64,000 nucleotides of DNA from Bacteroidota bacterium (GTDB lineage Bacteria > Bacteroidota > Bacteroidia > 2-12-FULL-35-15), in contig JAQZBR010000004.1 in the NCBI GenBank assembly GCA_029237775.1, positions 992,001-1,056,000 on the forward strand, written 5' to 3'. A program made the position numbers and the translations under genes. Each line of letters begins with the position of its first letter. Position 1 is the first letter of the stretch. Below the pieces are notes generated by a model. It made no database searches, was not told the DNA's origin, and saw nothing but the letters and a program-made list of their open reading frames with translations. Positions 47,517 through 57,694 of this stretch are shown here, in pieces.

Positions 47517-50500
47517 ATGAAAAGAATTCTACTCTTTTGCTCTGCTGCTTTTATAACAGGCAATTCCTTTGCACAGCTGATTGATGCGGAACCTGAAGTT
47601 TCGAATATATGTGCGGGCGGTTCTGCTACACTTACTGCAACAATAACACCCGCTGGCACTTCAGGCGCTCCGGGTAGTTTACCAACAAATTCATATGCTG
47701 TTTCAAGTATTCCTTATACCCCCAACTCTTATTCAGCGGGCACTCCTGTAACCTTTACGGGTGGATTGGCCGGAGATGACCAGGTAAGTGGTGCATTACC
47801 TATAGGATTCGACTTTTGTTTCTTCAGCGCCACTTACAATCAATTTTATGTGGGAAGCAACGGGTGGATAGGATTTTCACCGGGTGAGCCAAACAGTTTC
47901 ACTTCTGCTCCGATTCCCAATACCTCTGCTTCGGATGTTCCTTTCAACTGTATTATGGGCCCATGGCAGGACTGGCGTCCCGGTACAGGCGCAACGAACA
48001 TTCGTTATATTACTACGGGAACAGCGCCTAACCGAAAGCTTGTTGTTTCATGGGATAATGTTCCGTTTTACAGCTGTACAACAATAAGCGGAACTTTTCA
48101 GATAGTGATTTACGAAGGATCTAATGTCATTGAAAATTATATCGCTTCCAAACCGGGTACCTGTACCTGGGCGGGAGGAACTGCAGTTCAGGGAATTCAT
48201 AATGCTGCTGGAACAGTAGCTTTTACAGTCCCTGGACGAAACAGTACTGTATGGTCAGCAACTAATGACGCCTGGAGATATACCCCGAACGGAACAGTCA
48301 CCTACACTATTGAATGGTATATCTTACCTGCTAATACTCTCGTTGGCACAGGTAGCCCAATCACATTAACTCCTCCAACATCTCCACAATATTATTATTC
48401 TAAGGTGGTCGGCCCAGGTGGTTGCGGCCCCGGTTCAGGTAATACAGATACGGTTGTGGTAAATTCGATTCCAATGCCGGTTGATGCGGGATCGGATGTA
48501 ACAATTTGCCCCGGCTCTGCAACGATGTTAAGTGCAACAGGCGGCACAACATACTCCTGGTCACCTGCAACAGGTTTAAGTGATCCAAACATTGCCAACC
48601 CTATTGCGAATCCAACAACAACTACAGTTTATAGTGTTATGGCCACCGGTCCTTTTGGCTGTATGGGTTTTGATAATGTAACAGTGAATGTTCAACCGGT
48701 TCCTTTGGTGGATGCCGGTCCATCTTCTGTTATTTGTCCCGGAGAAAACATTCAGCTCAGCGGTAATGCCTCAGCAGGAACATATGCATGGAGCCCGGCC
48801 ACGACATTGGATGATCCGACAATACTAACACCTGTGGCAATGCCTTCAGTGACAACAACCTACACGCTGACGATCACTGATGCGAACGGATGTACGGCCT
48901 CTTCTGCAACAACTGTCTCAATTGGCAGTCCAGCGGTTGATGCCGGAGCAGACATTTCTATTTGTCCGGGTACTTCAACAACCTTGAATGCGAGTGGAGG
49001 TGATACATATACATGGTCTCCTGCGACAGGCTTAAGTGACCCTGCGGTTTCAAATCCTGTTGCGAATCCAACTATCACTACCACATATACTGTTATTGTT
49101 TCCTCAAGCAGCTCAGGCTGCAGCGGTACCGATTCTGTAACTATTACAGTCACGCCTGCAGTGATCGCGGATGCCGGAAATAACATTGCCATCTGTGCAG
49201 GTGATGACACAACACTTACTGCTTCAGGTGGCACATCATATTCCTGGACTCCGGCAGCAAGCCTGAGCAATTCAGGTATAAGTAATCCGATAGCCGAACC
49301 ACAATCAACAACCACATATACTGTTGTAGTAACGGATATTTCCGGATGTACTGGACTGGACTCGGTGACAGTTACTGTTAATCTATTACCAATTGTGAAT
49401 GCAGGCAGCGATATGAGTATTTGTGCCGGTGACAGTGCTAATCTTTCAGCAACTGGTGCTCTTAATTACTACTGGACTCCGGGCTCCGGCTTAAACAACG
49501 ATTCAATAGCAAATCCATCAGCTTCTCCACTGGTCCAGACAAATTATATTGTGACCGGTATTGATGTGAATGGTTGTATTGACACAGATACGGTAATGGT
49601 AAGTCTGAATGGCTTTACGATGAATACAGGGCTGAATGCAACGATATGCAATGGCGACAGTACTATGATAAACGCTTCGGGAGCGGTAACGTATGCATGG
49701 GTCCCGGCAGCCTCTTTAAATGATTCAACACTTGCGAGCCCATTTGCTAAACCTGCTTCTACAACAACCTATACTGTAGTGGGAACTTCTGCAAGCGGCT
49801 GCAAGGATACAGCCTTTGTGACGGTCACAGTAAACACTTTACCTCCTGTGAATGCCGGAACCTCCTTGTCTACCTGTGTTGGAGGGAATGCAAATCTATC
49901 AGTCACAGGCGCCAACTCTTATGTTTGGTCTCCTTCTGCTTCTCTGAACAATGCATTTATTCCGACACCTGTAGCGACCCCAACTGTAACAACATTATAT
50001 ACTGTAGTGGGCACAGATCTTAATGGTTGCAGTGCCAGTGATACAATCAGTGTTATTGTCCACCCACTGCCGAATGCGAATGCAGGAACTAACACAAGTA
50101 TTTGTCTGGGCTCTTCTATAACATTGAATGGTAGCGGAGGAGGATCCTATTCCTGGTCACCTTCCGGTTCTTTAAGCAGCAATAATGTTGCTGCCCCTGT
50201 TGCCACACCAACTTCCACTACAACGTACACCGTTACTGTAACGGGTGCCGGTTTCTGCACAGCATCTTCTCAGGTTACAATTACTGTGAATCCGGTGCCG
50301 GTGGCAAATGCCGGTTCTGATGCAAGCATTTGTAACGGGACTTCTGCAACGCTTAACGCCAGCGGAGGATCGGCATACTTCTGGTCGCCTTCAACAGGAC
50401 TAAGCAGTACAACATCAGCCAATCCTATTGCAAACCCCGGCACAACAACACAGTATACCGTTACCGTTTCAAACCCTTCGGGATGTACATCACAGGATTC

Positions 50501-51281
50501 AGTTGTTGTAAATGTGAGCAATGCAATTACCATAGCTCAATCGACAGTAATCAGTGAAACGTGTTCCAATGCTGACGGATCAATTACTTTAGGAGCTGTT
50601 TCCGGTGGAACATCGCCTTACCAGTATTCGCTTAACGGAGGCCCTAATCAAAACTCGGCAACCTTTACTGGTATTTCTCAGGGTAATTACGCAATAGTGG
50701 TTACTGATGCGGCAGGTTGCATTTCAGGTCAAACAGTCACTGTTGGACAGCTCACTAATGTAAATGCATCTTTTACTGCTGACCCATCCTTCGGCCCGAA
50801 TCCATTGAATGTTAACTTTACAAACACTTCTACGGGTGCAACAAGCTTCATTTGGGATCTCGGAAATGGAATAAGTACAATAGCTGCTGACCCTTCCACG
50901 ATCTATACCGAAACGGGTTCGTACAACGTAATGCTTATTGCATCAAATGGAGGATCTCCCTGCGTGGATACCGCAATATTTACAATTGAGGTTTACGAAG
51001 AATCAATGGTTATTATTCCTAATATTTTCACACCTAACGGAGATGGTAAAAATGATGTATTCATGATTCAGTCAACCGGTGTGAGCGAAGTGACCGGAAT
51101 AATATTTAACCGTTGGGGGAAAAAGATCTATAATTGGAGCGGTGCTGCGAATACAGGTTGGGATGGCAAGATAAACGGTAATACTGCTGCAGATGGCACT
51201 TATTACTATGTGTTGAAGATCAAAGGTGTTGATGGAAAGGAAAAAGAGGAAAAAGGCTATTTGCAATTACTTTCTGAATAA
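47517..51281 (+). CDS. Giant T9SS type B adhesin-like protein with nine Ig-like repeats and SprB repeat
   Basis: A 1254-residue exported protein. A signal peptide (1-19, FITGNSFAQ) is followed by a 300-residue N-terminal domain (FYVGSNGWIGFSPGEPNSF, FQIVIYEGSNVIENYI), then nine tandem Ig-like units of about 76 residues (about 322-1005; pattern DAG.D.SIC.G.S..L.ASGG..Y.WSP), an SprB-type repeat (about 1008-1080: ETCSNADGSITLGAVSGGTS, GNYAIVVTDAAGC), a PKD domain (about 1083-1162: SFIWDLGNGIS) and a type B sorting domain (VIIPNIFTPNGDGKNDVF, IFNRWGKKIYNW, GWDGKINGN, KGYLQLL). SprB repeats are named after the gliding adhesin of Flavobacterium johnsoniae. Surface adhesion is the likely role. Confidence 0.88.
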   Translation: MKRILLFCSAAFITGNSFAQLIDAEPEVSNICAGGSATLTATITPAGTSGAPGSLPTNSYAVSSIPYTPNSYSAGTPVTFTGGLAGDDQVSGALPIGFDFCFFSATYNQFYVGSNGWIGFSPGEPNSFTSAPIPNTSASDVPFNCIMGPWQDWRPGTGATNIRYITTGTAPNRKLVVSWDNVPFYSCTTISGTFQIVIYEGSNVIENYIASKPGTCTWAGGTAVQGIHNAAGTVAFTVPGRNSTVWSATNDAWRYTPNGTVTYTIEWYILPANTLVGTGSPITLTPPTSPQYYYSKVVGPGGCGPGSGNTDTVVVNSIPMPVDAGSDVTICPGSATMLSATGGTTYSWSPATGLSDPNIANPIANPTTTTVYSVMATGPFGCMGFDNVTVNVQPVPLVDAGPSSVICPGENIQLSGNASAGTYAWSPATTLDDPTILTPVAMPSVTTTYTLTITDANGCTASSATTVSIGSPAVDAGADISICPGTSTTLNASGGDTYTWSPATGLSDPAVSNPVANPTITTTYTVIVSSSSSGCSGTDSVTITVTPAVIADAGNNIAICAGDDTTLTASGGTSYSWTPAASLSNSGISNPIAEPQSTTTYTVVVTDISGCTGLDSVTVTVNLLPIVNAGSDMSICAGDSANLSATGALNYYWTPGSGLNNDSIANPSASPLVQTNYIVTGIDVNGCIDTDTVMVSLNGFTMNTGLNATICNGDSTMINASGAVTYAWVPAASLNDSTLASPFAKPASTTTYTVVGTSASGCKDTAFVTVTVNTLPPVNAGTSLSTCVGGNANLSVTGANSYVWSPSASLNNAFIPTPVATPTVTTLYTVVGTDLNGCSASDTISVIVHPLPNANAGTNTSICLGSSITLNGSGGGSYSWSPSGSLSSNNVAAPVATPTSTTTYTVTVTGAGFCTASSQVTITVNPVPVANAGSDASICNGTSATLNASGGSAYFWSPSTGLSSTTSANPIANPGTTTQYTVTVSNPSGCTSQDSVVVNVSNAITIAQSTVISETCSNADGSITLGAVSGGTSPYQYSLNGGPNQNSATFTGISQGNYAIVVTDAAGCISGQTVTVGQLTNVNASFTADPSFGPNPLNVNFTNTSTGATSFIWDLGNGISTIAADPSTIYTETGSYNVMLIASNGGSPCVDTAIFTIEVYEESMVIIPNIFTPNGDGKNDVFMIQSTGVSEVTGIIFNRWGKKIYNWSGAANTGWDGKINGNTAADGTYYYVLKIKGVDGKEKEEKGYLQLLSE

Positions 51282-51297
51282 TCAACAAATATCGGAA

Positions 51298-51340
51298 TAA
51301 AAACAAAGGCAGCAGAGAGTATCTGTTGCCTTTGTTTTTT
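51298..51340 (+). terminator. Rho-independent terminator after the nine-repeat adhesin gene
   Basis: AAACAAAGGCAGCA (51301-51314) pairs with TGTTGCCTTTGTTT (51324-51337) across a nine-base loop, 14 pairs with one wobble, followed by TTT. Confidence 0.9.
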
Positions 51341-51346
51341 AAATAA

Positions 51347-51376
51347 TTTGATTATTTTAGCAAAGTAGTATCTTTT
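51347..51376 (+). promoter_or_regulatory. Bacteroidetes-type promoter for the second adhesin gene
   Basis: TTTG at 51347-51350 and TATCTTTT at 51369-51376 (seven of eight to TAnnTTTG) are separated by 18 bases. It gives a leader of about 35 bases before the ATG at 51416. Confidence 0.45.
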
Positions 51377-51415
51377 CAATCAGTCAGTTGCATAAATCGC
51401 ATTTAACAGGTTCTC

Positions 51416-54400
51416 ATGAAAAAAACACTCCTTTCACTATTCGTTTTTTGTCTTTTAGTAGGATCACAGGCAAGGGCTTCCCACATTGCCGGTGGTGATC
51501 TTAGCTATGTGTGTCTTGGTAACAATCAATACCAGATCAACCTGAACCTGTTTGTGGATTGTCTTGGATTTGATCCGGGGAATGTTCAAACTGTGAATTT
51601 TAATAGTCCCTGCGGAGCAACAACTATTTCAGTCAATGCATTAAATCCGGGTGGTACAGAGATCTCACAGCTATGCCCTCAACAAATAAACAATAGTACA
51701 TGTAGTGGAGGCAATCTTCCGGGGATGTGGGTGTTTCATTATACGGGAACTGTTACCCTTGCTCCATGCAGTAGTTGGACAATGTCATGGGATGTTTGCT
51801 GCAGGAACAACGCAGTACTTAATCTTGTCACTCCTTTTTCCTTCGGAAGCTACATCGAAGCAACACTTAACAACATCACTTCAGCATGTGACAACTCTCC
51901 GTCTTTTACCGCACAGCCGATTCCTTATGTATGCCAGGGACAGCTTGTAAATTACAGTTATGGAGTTACTGAGACAGATGGTGATTCACTTTACTATTCA
52001 TTGATCAATGCAATGGATGCGGGAGGAGTATCTTTAGCTTATTCTGCCGGATATTCCGCTTCTTCACCAATTCCGGGAATTACGCTCAATCCTTTTACGG
52101 GGATGCTGACGTTCACTCCTGCAACGTTGGGGAACTTTGTGGTGGTTGTTCTTGTAGAAGAATATGACAGCAATGGAAACCTGATCGGGACGGTGATGAG
52201 GGATATTCAGTTTATTGTTCAGAACTGTTCCAATTCTGTTCCGGATCCCGCATCGGGACCGATAACAAGTTTGACGGGAACAGCAGCTCAAACAGGGCCA
52301 TTTTCAGTTGAATTATGCGAAGGGGCCAGCTTTACTTTCAATACCACGTATAGCGATCCTAATCCAGGTGATATCCTGACTCTAATTTCTAATTTATCGA
52401 CAGTCCTTCCGGGTGCAACAATAACTACAAGTGGAACTAACCCCATAACAGCTACGATCAGCTGGACTGCCCCTGCAGGTACTGCAAACACTAACACTAC
52501 CTTTAGCGTTACCGTTAATGATGGTTCTTGCCCGGTACCGGGACAACAGACCTTTGTGTACGACATTCAGGTAAACCCAAGAACATTAGCGGGTCCTGAT
52601 CAGATCATTTGTGGGCCACAAACAGCAACACTTGATGGAACAGGAGGAACAATCTTTAACTGGGTGGTTCTAAGCGGTCCGCCAATGGTAGTCGGAACAA
52701 ATTTCTCTTGTAATCCATGCGCTACGCCAATTGCATCACCGGCAAGCACAACCGTTTACGAGGTTACCAGCGATTTCAGCGGGACATGTGGAAATAAAGA
52801 TACCGTTACGATTACCGTAGTGCCAGATTATACGTTTAATATTTCCCAGAGCACCGCGACTCTTTGTATGGAGCAATCGGTACAATTCAGCAGCACGGAA
52901 AATCCTGCAGGTGCGTACACTTATTTATGGGGACCCTCAGTTAATCTTGATAATACATCAATTTATAATCCGACCGCAACACTGGACTCCGCAGGGACAT
53001 TTGAGTTCGACCTTACCATTACCAGTCCTCTTGGATGCGTAAAACATGATACAGTAAGTGCACTGGTACAACCTGCCATCAGGACAATTGCAACCGGTGA
53101 TAGTACTTTGTGCGGAAATCAATCTGCGAATCTGAGTGCAAGCGGAGGAACCACTTTTACCTGGGCTGTAATTTCAGGGCCTGCAATGGTAGTTGGAACA
53201 AACTTCTCCTGTAATCCATGCGCAAATCCTGTTGCCACACCATCGGCAACAACCACTTATTATGTAACAAGTGATCTGACCGGAACCTGTGTAAATACAG
53301 ATACTGTCACTGTGACTGTGGTTGCTGATTTTACACATTCAACTTCGCAGAGTGATACCACATCATGCCTGGGAACAACTATTCAGCTAAACAGTTTGGT
53401 TAATCCCGCAGGTTCGTATTCTTATACCTGGAGCCCTTCAAACTATCTTAACAATACAGCAATATCTAATCCTGTAGCAACTATAACCACTCCGGGAGCT
53501 TATGATTATGTAGTGAACATAGAAAGTTCATTAGGATGTTTTAAGCTTGATACGATCACCCTTAATATAGTTGGTTCATATGCACCTTCTCCTATTCTGA
53601 GCTATACTTCAAGTGCGTGTCTGGGCGATTCAATTCAGCTAAGCGCCACTTTTGGAACAGCGCCACCGGCAACGTGCGGAACGAATCCGGTGCCATGTAA
53701 CGCTTCACTTGCAGCAACTGTAGGAATTCAATCAGGCTCTAACTCGAGTACAACCTGGCCGGCTATATTTGGTAACTGGTATACATCCGAAAAACACCAG
53801 ATGTTATTCCGCGCTTCGGAATTAATTGCGGCCGGAATAACAGGGGGAAAAATTGATCAGATAGATATTCCGGTTTCGGCAATAAACGGAATTACTGTAT
53901 ATCATCAATTTACAATTAAAATGGGCTGCACCAACCTGAATGCCTTGGGAACGACCTGGGCATCCGGATTGTATCAGGTTTTCGGACCCGCTACTGTTAA
54001 TGTTGCAGTTGGCATGAACACGTGTTCATTTACAAATGCGTTCGAGTGGGACGGTATTTCCAATGTGATTGTTGAAATTTGCTCTTCCGAAGGTCCTGGC
54101 CCTGTTAGTTATTCAGATTATACCAATAGCTCTATAAGTCCGTATTCAACCACACCTTTTATGTCTTGTCTGTACAGTTATACGGATCAGTTTGATATGT
54201 GTCCCGATCAGTCTAACTTTACTAATCTAACTGCCGACAGGCCGGTTCTGAAATTCCACTATTGCGGAACCTCACCTGACACTTCAAATTATTCTTATGC
54301 TTGGTCGCCAAATCTTTATCTGGCCGATTCTACATCTCAATTCACAGGAGCATATATTCCGGGTGATACAACCTTTACTTTAATGGTTACAGATATGTTA

Positions 54401-55699
54401 AGCGGATGTGCGGATACCGCTTCCATCAGTGTTGTGGCATTACCTCCGACAACTTTTAACTTGACTGTAGGCAATGATGTTACAATTTGTCCGGGTACAC
54501 CAACCACCCTTAGCGCATCAGGGGCAACCACCTATTCCTGGAGTCCTGCAACGGGTCTTTCCAGTACCACGGCAGCCAATCCGGTTGCAAGTCCGACAGT
54601 TACTACAACCTACACCGTAATTGCATCAACGCCTTGCGCGCCAACGATTATCGACAGTGTAACCGTTTCTGCTGTAAACTCAGTGATATTGAATGTTAGC
54701 GCGGGTACGGATTTAAGTACATGTCCGGGAGCTCCTGTAACATTAAATGCAACGGGCGCGACTACATATACATGGACTCCTGCAACGGCATTGTCGAATG
54801 CGAACATCGCCAATCCGGTTTCAACGCTTCCATCAGTTGGAACAATTACATATACAGTAACCGGAAATGCACCATGTGCTAATCCGGTGTCAGACGTAGT
54901 TACAGTCACTGCAGTAAACTCTGTTATACTCAATGTGGATGCGGGAGATAACACTGTGGTTTGTCCGGGTGTACTAACTCAACTGACAGCAACAGGAGCC
55001 ACACAATATGTATGGAGTCCTGCAGCTACTTTGTCGAACGCCAATATAGATTCTCCATTGGCAAACCCATCAACAACAACAACCTATACTGTAATCGGGA
55101 CTGCGTATTGTGCTGATCCTGTTACAGATTCTGTTACAGTTAGTACAACAGCTTATAGCGGGCCGTTAACTACAGAGGCCGGTTCTCCGGGTTCAATTTG
55201 TGTTGGCGAACCATTTACTTTAAACGGTGCGTCAACAGGGGGATATGGTAATAATAACTATATGTGGAGTGTTGTGCAGGGCGAGTTTAATGATTCGGCA
55301 ACCAGTCCTACAAGTCTGAGTACACCGATCATCACCGCCTTCCCGGGAATGAACGTGTATGAACTTCAGGTAGTGGATCAGTGCGGATATATGAGCGCAG
55401 ACACTGTTATTGTTGATGTCCTGGCAGACTGTATGGTGATCATACCAAATATCTTCACACCGAACGGGGATGGTGATAATGATGAGTTCATCATTGCAGA
55501 TGAGCATGGGGGCATAAAAACATTCAGCATGGCTATTTTCAATCGTTGGGGTAAAAAAGTGTTTGAAACCAGCGATATAAGAAATGGATGGAATGGAGAT
55601 AATTCCCCTGATGGAACGTATTTCTATATTATAACGGCAGAAACAAGCAACGGACAGCCTTTCAATAAGCAAGGTTATTTCCAGCTATTAGGTAAGTAA
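51416..55699 (+). CDS. Giant T9SS type B surface protein with duplicated modules
   Basis: A 1427-residue exported protein. A signal peptide (about 1-22) is followed by a region typical of Bacteroidetes surface proteins (SHIAGGDLSYVCLGNNQYQI and a cysteine-rich SWDVCCRNN segment), an Ig-like region, then a two-fold tandem module of about 168 residues (about 387-555 and 556-723) in which the stretch MVVGTNFSCNPCA is identical, a unique block (about 750-960), three Ig-like repeats (about 1020-1250: GNDVTICPGTPTTLSASGAT and its copies), and a type B sorting domain (VIIPNIFTPNGDGDNDEF, IFNRWGKKVFET, GWNGDNSPDG, KQGYFQLLG). Strong terminators flank it, so it is probably transcribed alone from its own promoter. 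The function is unknown. Confidence 0.88.
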   Translation: MKKTLLSLFVFCLLVGSQARASHIAGGDLSYVCLGNNQYQINLNLFVDCLGFDPGNVQTVNFNSPCGATTISVNALNPGGTEISQLCPQQINNSTCSGGNLPGMWVFHYTGTVTLAPCSSWTMSWDVCCRNNAVLNLVTPFSFGSYIEATLNNITSACDNSPSFTAQPIPYVCQGQLVNYSYGVTETDGDSLYYSLINAMDAGGVSLAYSAGYSASSPIPGITLNPFTGMLTFTPATLGNFVVVVLVEEYDSNGNLIGTVMRDIQFIVQNCSNSVPDPASGPITSLTGTAAQTGPFSVELCEGASFTFNTTYSDPNPGDILTLISNLSTVLPGATITTSGTNPITATISWTAPAGTANTNTTFSVTVNDGSCPVPGQQTFVYDIQVNPRTLAGPDQIICGPQTATLDGTGGTIFNWVVLSGPPMVVGTNFSCNPCATPIASPASTTVYEVTSDFSGTCGNKDTVTITVVPDYTFNISQSTATLCMEQSVQFSSTENPAGAYTYLWGPSVNLDNTSIYNPTATLDSAGTFEFDLTITSPLGCVKHDTVSALVQPAIRTIATGDSTLCGNQSANLSASGGTTFTWAVISGPAMVVGTNFSCNPCANPVATPSATTTYYVTSDLTGTCVNTDTVTVTVVADFTHSTSQSDTTSCLGTTIQLNSLVNPAGSYSYTWSPSNYLNNTAISNPVATITTPGAYDYVVNIESSLGCFKLDTITLNIVGSYAPSPILSYTSSACLGDSIQLSATFGTAPPATCGTNPVPCNASLAATVGIQSGSNSSTTWPAIFGNWYTSEKHQMLFRASELIAAGITGGKIDQIDIPVSAINGITVYHQFTIKMGCTNLNALGTTWASGLYQVFGPATVNVAVGMNTCSFTNAFEWDGISNVIVEICSSEGPGPVSYSDYTNSSISPYSTTPFMSCLYSYTDQFDMCPDQSNFTNLTADRPVLKFHYCGTSPDTSNYSYAWSPNLYLADSTSQFTGAYIPGDTTFTLMVTDMLSGCADTASISVVALPPTTFNLTVGNDVTICPGTPTTLSASGATTYSWSPATGLSSTTAANPVASPTVTTTYTVIASTPCAPTIIDSVTVSAVNSVILNVSAGTDLSTCPGAPVTLNATGATTYTWTPATALSNANIANPVSTLPSVGTITYTVTGNAPCANPVSDVVTVTAVNSVILNVDAGDNTVVCPGVLTQLTATGATQYVWSPAATLSNANIDSPLANPSTTTTYTVIGTAYCADPVTDSVTVSTTAYSGPLTTEAGSPGSICVGEPFTLNGASTGGYGNNNYMWSVVQGEFNDSATSPTSLSTPIITAFPGMNVYELQVVDQCGYMSADTVIVDVLADCMVIIPNIFTPNGDGDNDEFIIADEHGGIKTFSMAIFNRWGKKVFETSDIRNGWNGDNSPDGTYFYIITAETSNGQPFNKQGYFQLLGK

Positions 55700-55750: not shown

Positions 55751-55780
55751 AACTTTCAGAAAGTTTTGAAAGTTCGGAAA
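55751..55780. promoter_or_regulatory. Operator-like palindrome and motif upstream of the GbsR gene
   Basis: AACTTTCAGAAAGTT (55751-55765) is a perfect palindrome with seven-base arms, and it runs into TTGAAAGTTCGGAAA (55766-55780). The second motif recurs with one mismatch at 56349-56363, before the next gene. The site covers the -33 element and the first half of the spacer of the promoter at 55765-55794, where a bound regulator would block polymerase. Binding by the GbsR/MarR protein is inferred. Confidence 0.55.
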
Positions 55781-55794
55781 ATGTAATACATTTG
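55765..55794 (+). promoter_or_regulatory. Bacteroidetes-type promoter for the GbsR gene
   Basis: TTTG at 55765-55768 and TACATTTG at 55787-55794 fit the -33 and -7 consensus elements fully, with an 18-base spacer. The start codon is at 55813. The operator-like motif overlaps it. Confidence 0.65.
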
Positions 55795-55812
55795 TACTGT
55801 AATTATTAAACA

Positions 55813-56319
55813 ATGAAGTTAACAGAGAGCAGAGAAAAGTTTATTAATGCCTGGGGAACACTCGGTACCAGCTGGGGCATTAACAGAACCATGGCCCAGG
55901 TTCATGCCCTGCTTCTCATTTCAGCTGATGCATTGACCACTGAAGAAATAATGGAAGAGTTGAATATTTCGCGTGGAAACACAAATATGAATGTGAGAAC
56001 TCTGATTGATTGGGGCCTGGTTCAAAAGGAGCTTAGGGCAGGTGAGCGCAAAGAGTATTTTGTAGCGGAGAAGGATATCTATAAAGTCTTTAAACAGATC
56101 GCAAAGGAAAGAAGGAAGCGTGAGCTTGAACCGATATTCAAAGTGCTGGATGAGGTGAAGAAGGTCGATGGGGATAAACGCGATAAGAATATTAAAGCCT
56201 TTGTAGACACAATTGAACAGATCGAACGTTTCACCACGAAAGCGGATAGAACCCTGGAAACCCTTATTAAAGCTGATGAGAACTGGCTTATGGGGTCTTT
56301 TATGAAATTGATGAAGTAA
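55813..56319 (+). CDS. GbsR/MarR family transcriptional regulator
   Basis: A 168-residue winged-helix regulator. The N-terminal part (INAWGTLGTSWGINRTMAQV, ALTTEEIMEELNISRGNTNM, NVRTLIDWGLVQKELRAGER, KEYFVAEKDIYKVFKQIAKE) is characteristic of the GbsR family, with recognition helix SRGNTNMNVRTL and a wing region near ELRAGERKEYF. The C-terminal half is a charged helical dimerisation or coiled-coil part. GbsR-type proteins usually repress neighbouring genes and respond to a ligand such as choline; the ligand here is unknown. It heads a module with two small membrane proteins and an SRPBCC protein. The operator-like motif before it, repeated before the next gene, suggests autoregulation plus control of the downstream genes. 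Confidence 0.9.
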   Translation: MKLTESREKFINAWGTLGTSWGINRTMAQVHALLLISADALTTEEIMEELNISRGNTNMNVRTLIDWGLVQKELRAGERKEYFVAEKDIYKVFKQIAKERRKRELEPIFKVLDEVKKVDGDKRDKNIKAFVDTIEQIERFTTKADRTLETLIKADENWLMGSFMKLMK

Positions 56320-56336
56320 AAAAATTTGCAATAATG

Positions 56337-56363
56337 TTTCAATTAATATTGAAAGTTCAGAAA
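56337..56363. promoter_or_regulatory. Second operator-like site, before the twin membrane genes
   Basis: TTTCAAT and ATTGAAA (56337-56354) form a palindrome with a four-base spacer. TTGAAAGTTCAGAAA (56349-56363) equals the motif at 55766-55780 in 14 of 15 positions and ends two bases before the ATG at 56366. A weak -7 candidate (TAATATTG, 56344-56351) overlaps it. Confidence 0.55.
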
Positions 56364-56365
56364 CT

Positions 56366-56731
56366 ATGAATTACAATATCTGCACATACAGCTTTTACCT
56401 CCTGATTACATTATACGTGGTATTCAGAGTCGGCCATCTTCTTTATAAATACGGACGTCCGTTTCTCATTTGCACTTTCAATGGAAATGCCTCAGTGGCT
56501 GATGCAATAAATAAAGTGCTTCTTGCCGGATACTATCTCGTCAATGCCGGATACTCTATCACGGTTCTTAAAGTGTGGCAGACAGTCGGCTCACTTGAAC
56601 AGATGTTGAATGTTCTGAGCTATAAGGCTGGTACGATCGTACTGACATTGGGGTTCATGCACCTGTTCAATGTTCTGGTGCTTTTACGAATCGGAAAAAT
56701 GAAAAAAACAATTAATAATACTAACCAATAA
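56366..56731 (+). CDS. Small membrane protein of the GbsR module (first of two paralogues)
   Basis: A 121-residue protein with three hydrophobic helices (about 7-24, 48-68 and 88-112). It resembles the following 142-residue protein: both start MNY with a helix containing YS.YL, both carry a short loop with F.G....A..S/V.....NK.LL..G.YL (here NGNASVADAINKVLLAGYYL) and both end with LSYK.G...L.LG.M....... The two lie in tandem 13 bases apart. No family is known to me. It is probably controlled by the GbsR regulator just upstream, whose motif is repeated right before this ATG. Confidence 0.75.
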   Translation: MNYNICTYSFYLLITLYVVFRVGHLLYKYGRPFLICTFNGNASVADAINKVLLAGYYLVNAGYSITVLKVWQTVGSLEQMLNVLSYKAGTIVLTLGFMHLFNVLVLLRIGKMKKTINNTNQ

Positions 56732-56744
56732 AAAACCAATTACC

Positions 56745-57173
56745 ATGAACTACATCGTATTAGCTTACAGCATCTATTTGCCAATTGCGGTAGCGCTGAC
56801 AATCTGGGTTGCAAGAACCCTCCACACAAATGGAAAAATATTTCTGGTTGATATTTTTCACGGGCAGAGTGAACTGGCGGTATCAGTGAATAAATTGTTG
56901 CAGGTAGGATTTTATCTGATCAGCCTTGGTTTTGCTATCATCAAGCTTGAGATCACTCCTCAATGGGAATATAACAGTGTTACAAGCACAAATATGTTAG
57001 TTGATATAAATAATGCACAAAGCATGATAGAGATCCTCAGTTATAAAATAGGCTCTTTCATCCTTATTCTTGGCTTGATGTTATTTATTAACCTCTTTCT
57101 TTTATTAATGCTCCGAAGCGGTTCTAAACCAAAACCGGTTACTGTGCAGCAGCCAATTGTAAGGCCGGTCTAG
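56745..57173 (+). CDS. Small membrane protein of the GbsR module (second paralogue)
   Basis: A 142-residue protein with three hydrophobic helices (about 5-25, 50-70 and 104-126) and a basic, proline-rich tail (RSGSKPKPVT). It shares the layout and several short motifs with its neighbour (MNYIVLAYSIYL, NKLLQVGFYLISLGFA, LSYKIGSFILILGLM), plus an insert of about 20 residues before the third helix. It follows the first paralogue by 13 bases, so the pair is co-transcribed and may act as a heteromeric membrane complex, an inference. Function unknown. Confidence 0.75.
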   Translation: MNYIVLAYSIYLPIAVALTIWVARTLHTNGKIFLVDIFHGQSELAVSVNKLLQVGFYLISLGFAIIKLEITPQWEYNSVTSTNMLVDINNAQSMIEILSYKIGSFILILGLMLFINLFLLLMLRSGSKPKPVTVQQPIVRPV

Positions 57174-57220
57174 TCTGCGGGATGTATTAGGGCAACGTAA
57201 TATTTTATCAGGGATAACAA

Positions 57221-57694
57221 ATGGAAACGATACAGCTGGAAACAAAAATAAATGCTCCGGTCACACGATGTTTTGATCTTGCAAGAAGCATTGATTTTCA
57301 TAAGCTAACTACTTCCAAAACGGATGAGAGAGCAATTGCAGGAACCGTTACCGGTCTTATAAATAAAGGCGAAACTGTTACATGGCGCGCGAAACATTTT
57401 GGAGTGTATCAGGAATTAAGCTCTGTTATCGCTGAAATGGAATCGCCTTTTTTCTTTGAAGACCGGATGTTGAAAGGTGCATTTAAAAGTATTCGTCACC
57501 GACATTATTTTGAAGAATATAATAATGTAACAACAATGAAAGATGTGTTCGAGTTCGAAGTTCCGTTCGGTTTCCCTGGTAGAATATTCGGTAAGCTCGT
57601 TTTGAAAAATTATTTACGAAAGTTTCTGATCGAAAGAAACAGAATGTTAAAAGTAGCTGCTGAGAGTGACCAATGGAAAGAATTCCTGACCTGA
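57221..57694 (+). CDS. SRPBCC-superfamily protein
   Basis: A 157-residue START/Bet v1-like protein, in which a long beta sheet wraps a C-terminal helix around a hydrophobic cavity for lipids, sterols or aromatic ligands. The opening IQLETKINAPVTRCFDLARSI and the segments VTWRAKHFGV, MLKGAFKSIRHRHYFEEY and DVFEFEVPFGFPGRIFGKLV are typical of bacterial SRPBCC proteins of this size. No catalytic motif is evident. It lies 47 bases after the second membrane gene and probably belongs to the same unit. Its stop codon abuts the stop of ppx on the other strand. Confidence 0.82.
   Translation: METIQLETKINAPVTRCFDLARSIDFHKLTTSKTDERAIAGTVTGLINKGETVTWRAKHFGVYQELSSVIAEMESPFFFEDRMLKGAFKSIRHRHYFEEYNNVTTMKDVFEFEVPFGFPGRIFGKLVLKNYLRKFLIERNRMLKVAAESDQWKEFLT

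Follow-up and report, generated by a model that had tools for sequence, protein, structure and literature searches.

The 64,000-nucleotide stretch of Bacteroidota DNA analyzed here (the window) carries a gene for a GbsR-type regulator followed by genes for two small membrane proteins and an SRPBCC-fold protein, and it raises the following question: are these genes a single unit governed by its own regulator, and if so through which sites and for what function? All four genes exist on the + strand, head to tail, as the initial annotation had reported, and with the two candidate operators the order is O1, regulator, O2, MP1, MP2, SRPBCC. The features are as follows:

55751..55774, unstranded: putative operator O1, AACTTTCA-GAAAGTTT-TGAAAGTT, an interrupted palindrome (16/16 match) that overlaps the -33 element
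55765..55768, + strand: predicted -33 promoter element TTTG, inside O1 (from sequence)
55787..55794, + strand: predicted -7 promoter element TACATTTG (from sequence)
55813..56319, + strand: GbsR-type MarR-family regulator, 168 aa (domain and structural-template similarity)
56334..56357, unstranded: putative operator O2, ATGTTTCA-ATTAATAT-TGAAAGTT (14/16 match), between the regulator and the structural genes and without a -7 box
56366..56731, + strand: MP1, small membrane protein, 121 aa, with an invariant His in helix 3 (alignment, tree, motif count)
56745..57173, + strand: MP2, paralogue of MP1, 142 aa, with Leu at the position of MP1's His and three predicted helices (alignment, model, tree)
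57221..57694, + strand: SRPBCC-fold protein, 157 aa (model pLDDT 92.3 and PDB structure matches)

A convergent ppx gene lies directly after the SRPBCC-fold gene, and ahead of the module (47517-55699) the window encodes two large, repeat-rich secreted-type proteins of 1254 and 1427 aa whose C-terminal ends are alike. We found no name for this module in the open-access papers searched. PADLOC gave no match for MP1, MP2 or the SRPBCC protein and weak matches for the regulator, and a defence-system reading was dropped because the matches were weak and confined to that one protein.

The regulator, which had been called a GbsR/MarR protein from the sequence alone, contains a MarR_2 domain (PF12802; 34.6 bits, Pfam cutoff 27), and its closest solved relative by sequence, over nearly its full length (residues 4-153, E = 9.7e-17), is MJ223 of Methanocaldococcus jannaschii (PDB 1ku9). 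It scores 59.7 bits against the CudC model NF047500, below the curated cutoff of 218, which makes it a relative of CudC but not CudC itself. It is the only copy found in its genome. Among GbsR-type proteins the aromatic cage, which accommodates choline or glycine betaine, belongs to the osmostress subgroup and is absent from the others, and a 2018 survey of the family found its Bacteroidetes members without a consistent neighbourhood (PMC6207618).

The two membrane proteins had been described as paralogous twins of three helices each. A search with MP1 finds MP2 with E = 3.8e-13 and 38% identity, and three helices are predicted for MP2 from its model (pLDDT 78.6); for MP1 they follow from alignment, as its hydropathy profile taken alone has two strong peaks. 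Neither sequence nor fold gave a convincing match of MP2 to a solved structure. In a quick tree (128 columns, with long branches) all 68 first-position proteins fall on one side of one branch (SH-aLRT 98), and a helix-3 motif carries His in 68/68 first-position proteins (MP1), Leu in 67/68 second-position proteins (MP2) and His in 12/13 single-copy ones. This order and the His/Leu split suggest an old duplication that gave rise to a fixed heteromer.

The last protein, which we take to be COG4276-like, had also been assigned to the SRPBCC proteins in advance, and its confident model agrees: it has the helix-grip fold, with 337 PDB matches at E<=0.001, and the top matches are START/SRPBCC structures (2d4r at E = 1.2e-8, PYL and TcmN). 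The fold of TTHA0849 (2d4r) and of other START/SRPBCC proteins matches the model at TM 0.70 and 18% identity, although the sequence has no Pfam match at E<=1, a kind of match that would support membership in the superfamily but does not define it. A relative of the protein gives a weak Polyketide_cyc match (E = 0.093), and a search of PDB chains with its sequence profile found none. From the model, it is plausible that the protein binds a hydrophobic ligand.

Where would the regulator bind? Aligned upstream regions of relatives contain a 24-bp interrupted palindrome, AACTTTCA-N8-TGAAAGTT, an inverted repeat of the kind looked for at genes under GbsR-type regulators, and it is present at the module genes as a putative binding site. 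A Markov control expects 0.1 sites of >=14/16 per window; this window has O1 and O2. The initial annotation had pointed to a motif, TTGAAAGTTCRGAAA, occurring twice, and exact copies do lie at 55766-55780 and 56349-56363 (with <=2 mismatches there are 3 sites in 64 kb, against 0.78 expected). Its duplicated operator stands, but the operator had been drawn incorrectly, in that the motif is only the right half of the 24-bp site. The 15-bp "perfect palindrome" noted beside the first copy is the left half plus the spacer, and was rejected as an operator because as such it is not conserved outside close relatives.

An MP2 alignment run against named genomes found at least 514 relatives, and 80 loci were analyzed. 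The GbsR gene lies within the locus in 66 of the 80 (two of the 14 others, L049 and L094, end at a contig end), and where a GbsR gene is present and the sites can be scored, O1 is found in 63/65 named-genome loci and O2 in 55/65, counts that are not independent because the loci are related and were gathered by MP2 similarity. In a second count, GbsR is present in 18/18 of the genomes that have the MP family, <=3 kb away. The neighbourhood and its upstream motif, whose presence in relatives the initial annotation had proposed as checks, are therefore both conserved. Among the loci are ones from Flavobacterium, Pedobacter, Maribacter and Chitinophagaceae, with a few in MAGs labelled Verrucomicrobia; a separate MP2 search found a single pair per genome, and the distribution is patchy, since only 5/36 genomes of the window's own genus have the pair. 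In two of the Verrucomicrobia-labelled MAGs (L104, L118) the MP gene is single-copy and is accompanied by GbsR and an operator of 15/16. A Limnohabitans-labelled contig (L111) with a Flavobacterium-like module is likely MAG contamination.

These counts connect the operator with the locus, but is it connected with GbsR itself? Among 296 evenly sampled Bacteroidota genomes, 104 have a GbsR homologue, and all 30 genomes that contain the exact 24-bp palindrome are among those 104 (Fisher 1e-15, a value inflated by genome kinship), while a reversed-pattern control was present in one of the 296. The MP pair is separated from GbsR in Chitinophaga-type genomes; 12 such loci nevertheless have an upstream operator at >=12/16 (9 of them at >=13), and in 9/10 of the separated-pair genomes searched a GbsR gene lies elsewhere, each preceded by a site of >=13/16. 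Finally, CydE of Alishewanella sp. WH16-1, a GbsR-type repressor, has a footprint, TATTTCAGAAATTTCTGAAAGTTCA, with the same TTTCA-N8-TGAAAGTT layout (PMC6096048). These three lines (co-occurrence, separated pairs and the CydE layout) suggest that AACTTTCA-N8-TGAAAGTT is probably the GbsR site. Two Flavobacterium genomes (G099, G100) have the module's own O1/O2 pair as their only sites with <=1 mismatch, and in a third, G101, there is one further site; the regulon in these three looks local because near-exact sites are almost confined to the module. Outside the main group the operator sits away from GbsR, at unrelated genes.

The explanation that we consider probable for the regulatory part is a self-regulated, inducible module. 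Dimeric GbsR would bind the palindrome; at O1 it would cover the -33 element of the sole recognisable promoter and so repress the whole operon, its own gene included, and at O2, about 570 bp downstream and just ahead of the first cargo gene, it could act as a roadblock to elongating polymerase or form a loop with O1, and either might leave the cargo under stricter repression than the regulator. GbsR would be released by a ligand or by a stress signal, upon which MP1 and MP2 would form a heteromeric membrane unit and the SRPBCC protein, joined in fuller copies by TIGR01777, desaturase or DUF2071 proteins, would handle a lipophilic molecule or modify a membrane lipid. We hold this cargo part only tentatively. 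The earlier proposal of one regulated unit fits with the module's own GbsR gene, its duplicated operator and its conservation, but O2 does not resemble a second promoter and the SRPBCC gene is variable.

That variability is part of a cargo content that differs between operons. Among 88 operons the MP pair occurs in 71, TIGR01777 in 50, SRPBCC in 27, DUF2071 in 15 and a fatty-acid desaturase in 8, and further members are DCC1-like, DUF4345-like, luciferase-domain and PEMT-like proteins. These counts rest on mechanical gene calls and contain three relatives that were each entered under two locus ids; some GbsR genes were masked by antisense ORFs, so GbsR presence is better taken from the count by locus (66/80). 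TIGR01777 is thus commoner than SRPBCC, and the window copy, which lacks it, is a short form; the window genome has one TIGR01777-type gene elsewhere (32% identity). The contents of the fuller operons (TIGR01777 oxidoreductase, desaturase, DUF2071, DCC1-like protein) suggest membrane or lipophile chemistry.

Could the cargo instead serve photobiology or photo-oxidative stress, and not general membrane upkeep? This idea comes from distant sites. In three genomes of one distant genus (L202, L203, L204) the exact operator precedes a bacteriorhodopsin-like gene whose neighbour encodes a retinal-forming beta-carotene dioxygenase, with GbsR elsewhere in the genome, and 2.0 Mb scanned of one such 3.5 Mb genome contained one exact site, the rest being chance-level matches. 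In three further genera (L205, L206, L209; Pfam run on one) it lies just upstream of a gene for a chorismate-binding enzyme followed by a MenD-like gene, that is, menF-menD-like genes. These sites are few, however, and in other classes, others precede an aldehyde dehydrogenase gene (in L207 and L208, with an alcohol-dehydrogenase-like gene and an adjoining bactofilin gene), and the identified operon members showed neither a photolyase nor a carotenoid gene; we regard a photobiological role for the cargo as unlikely. The distant sites point toward light or redox signals as a lead, not a conclusion. A broader conjecture, which we think distinctly unlikely, is that the Bacteroidota GbsR group senses a light-tied lipophilic or redox signal (retinal, carotenoid, quinone) and that the same operator serves, according to lineage, the MP1-MP2/SRPBCC/TIGR01777 module, rhodopsin plus retinal synthesis, or menF-menD.

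The remaining alternatives concern how the two sites would act, and here O1 and O2 differ sharply when scored with a published promoter consensus for the -33 and -7 elements (PMC6847099). TTTG stands at the -33 place in 49/64 O1 copies and in 1/56 O2 copies, and TAnnTTTG follows O1 at 21-24 nt in 60/64 loci (59 of them at 21-23) and O2 in 1/56. At operator position 16, 92% of O1 copies have T whereas 80% of O2 copies have C, as though O2 had been released from the constraint of a -33 box. The two sites are typically ~570 bp apart, and O2 is mostly 5-24 nt upstream of the next ATG. Such an arrangement is consistent with a regulator that occludes the promoter at O1 and, from O2, blocks elongation or closes a loop. 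Would O2 instead be a second operator-controlled promoter that drives the cargo apart from the regulator? It immediately precedes the first cargo gene, and 5-of-6 matches to the -7 element follow it in 10/56 copies where shuffles give 1.3, an excess that leaves room for a weak internal promoter. As a full promoter it was rejected, the -7 box being found in only one copy of the 56; the -33 TTTG is equally rare, the window's start codon is only 8 nt past O2, and the second-promoter reading is to our minds quite improbable.

Activation of the operon by the regulator, for which promoter-near sites can serve, is very unlikely: O1 covers the -33 element itself, O2 is within the presumed transcribed region, and the characterised GbsR-type proteins GbsR, OpcR, OpuAR and CydE are all repressors (PMC7396694, PMC6207618, PMC6096048). 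An RNA hairpin at O2 that controls how the cargo message is translated or processed would suit the short distance to the start codon and arms that could pair in RNA, but it is extremely improbable and was dropped, since clear covariation is absent among 30 distinct O2 sequences (positions 3-22 pair in 15/30 against 10.6 expected, with G-G commonest, and the other pairs are at expectation) and the O1 copy of the motif, being on the promoter, is not expected in the transcript.

The proposed mode of repression, with occlusion from O1 combined with a roadblock or loop through O2, has parallels in known systems. The CydE control region likewise has two binding sites (those of the module are predicted), but the second CydE footprint is an unrelated sequence, whereas the two sites of the module have a common sequence and lie on either side of the regulator gene; CydE also has cytochrome bd genes as targets and is released by sulfate (PMC6096048). 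The Bacillus subtilis MarR-type repressors GbsR and OpcR (PMC7396694) resemble the proposed arrangement in that GbsR is a roadblock downstream of the start site, as O2 would allow, and OpcR covers the -35 region, as at O1. There roadblock and occlusion belong to separate regulators, whereas here both geometries are found within one operon. B. subtilis GbsR differs further in its operator spacer (4 bp, against 8 bp in the module), and it senses choline and controls glycine betaine genes, to which the module cargo is unrelated.

The regulator family is already known; measured against the papers searched, the neighbourhood, the paired layout and, for Bacteroidota, the sequence of the operator appear to be new. 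In contrast to the 2018 survey (PMC6207618), a Bacteroidota GbsR subgroup now has a recurring neighbourhood and a defined operator, of which one copy is tied to a promoter and the other is free of one. In the transposed form the separated membrane pair still keeps the operator. Regulon prediction and simple tests thereby become possible in cultured Flavobacterium. The module also points to two unnamed membrane-protein families present in many environmental genomes. In Flammeovirga aprica two additional operator-like sites (15/16; L099:5506-5655) lie at an opposite-strand gene whose product is a predicted membrane protein of 658 aa.
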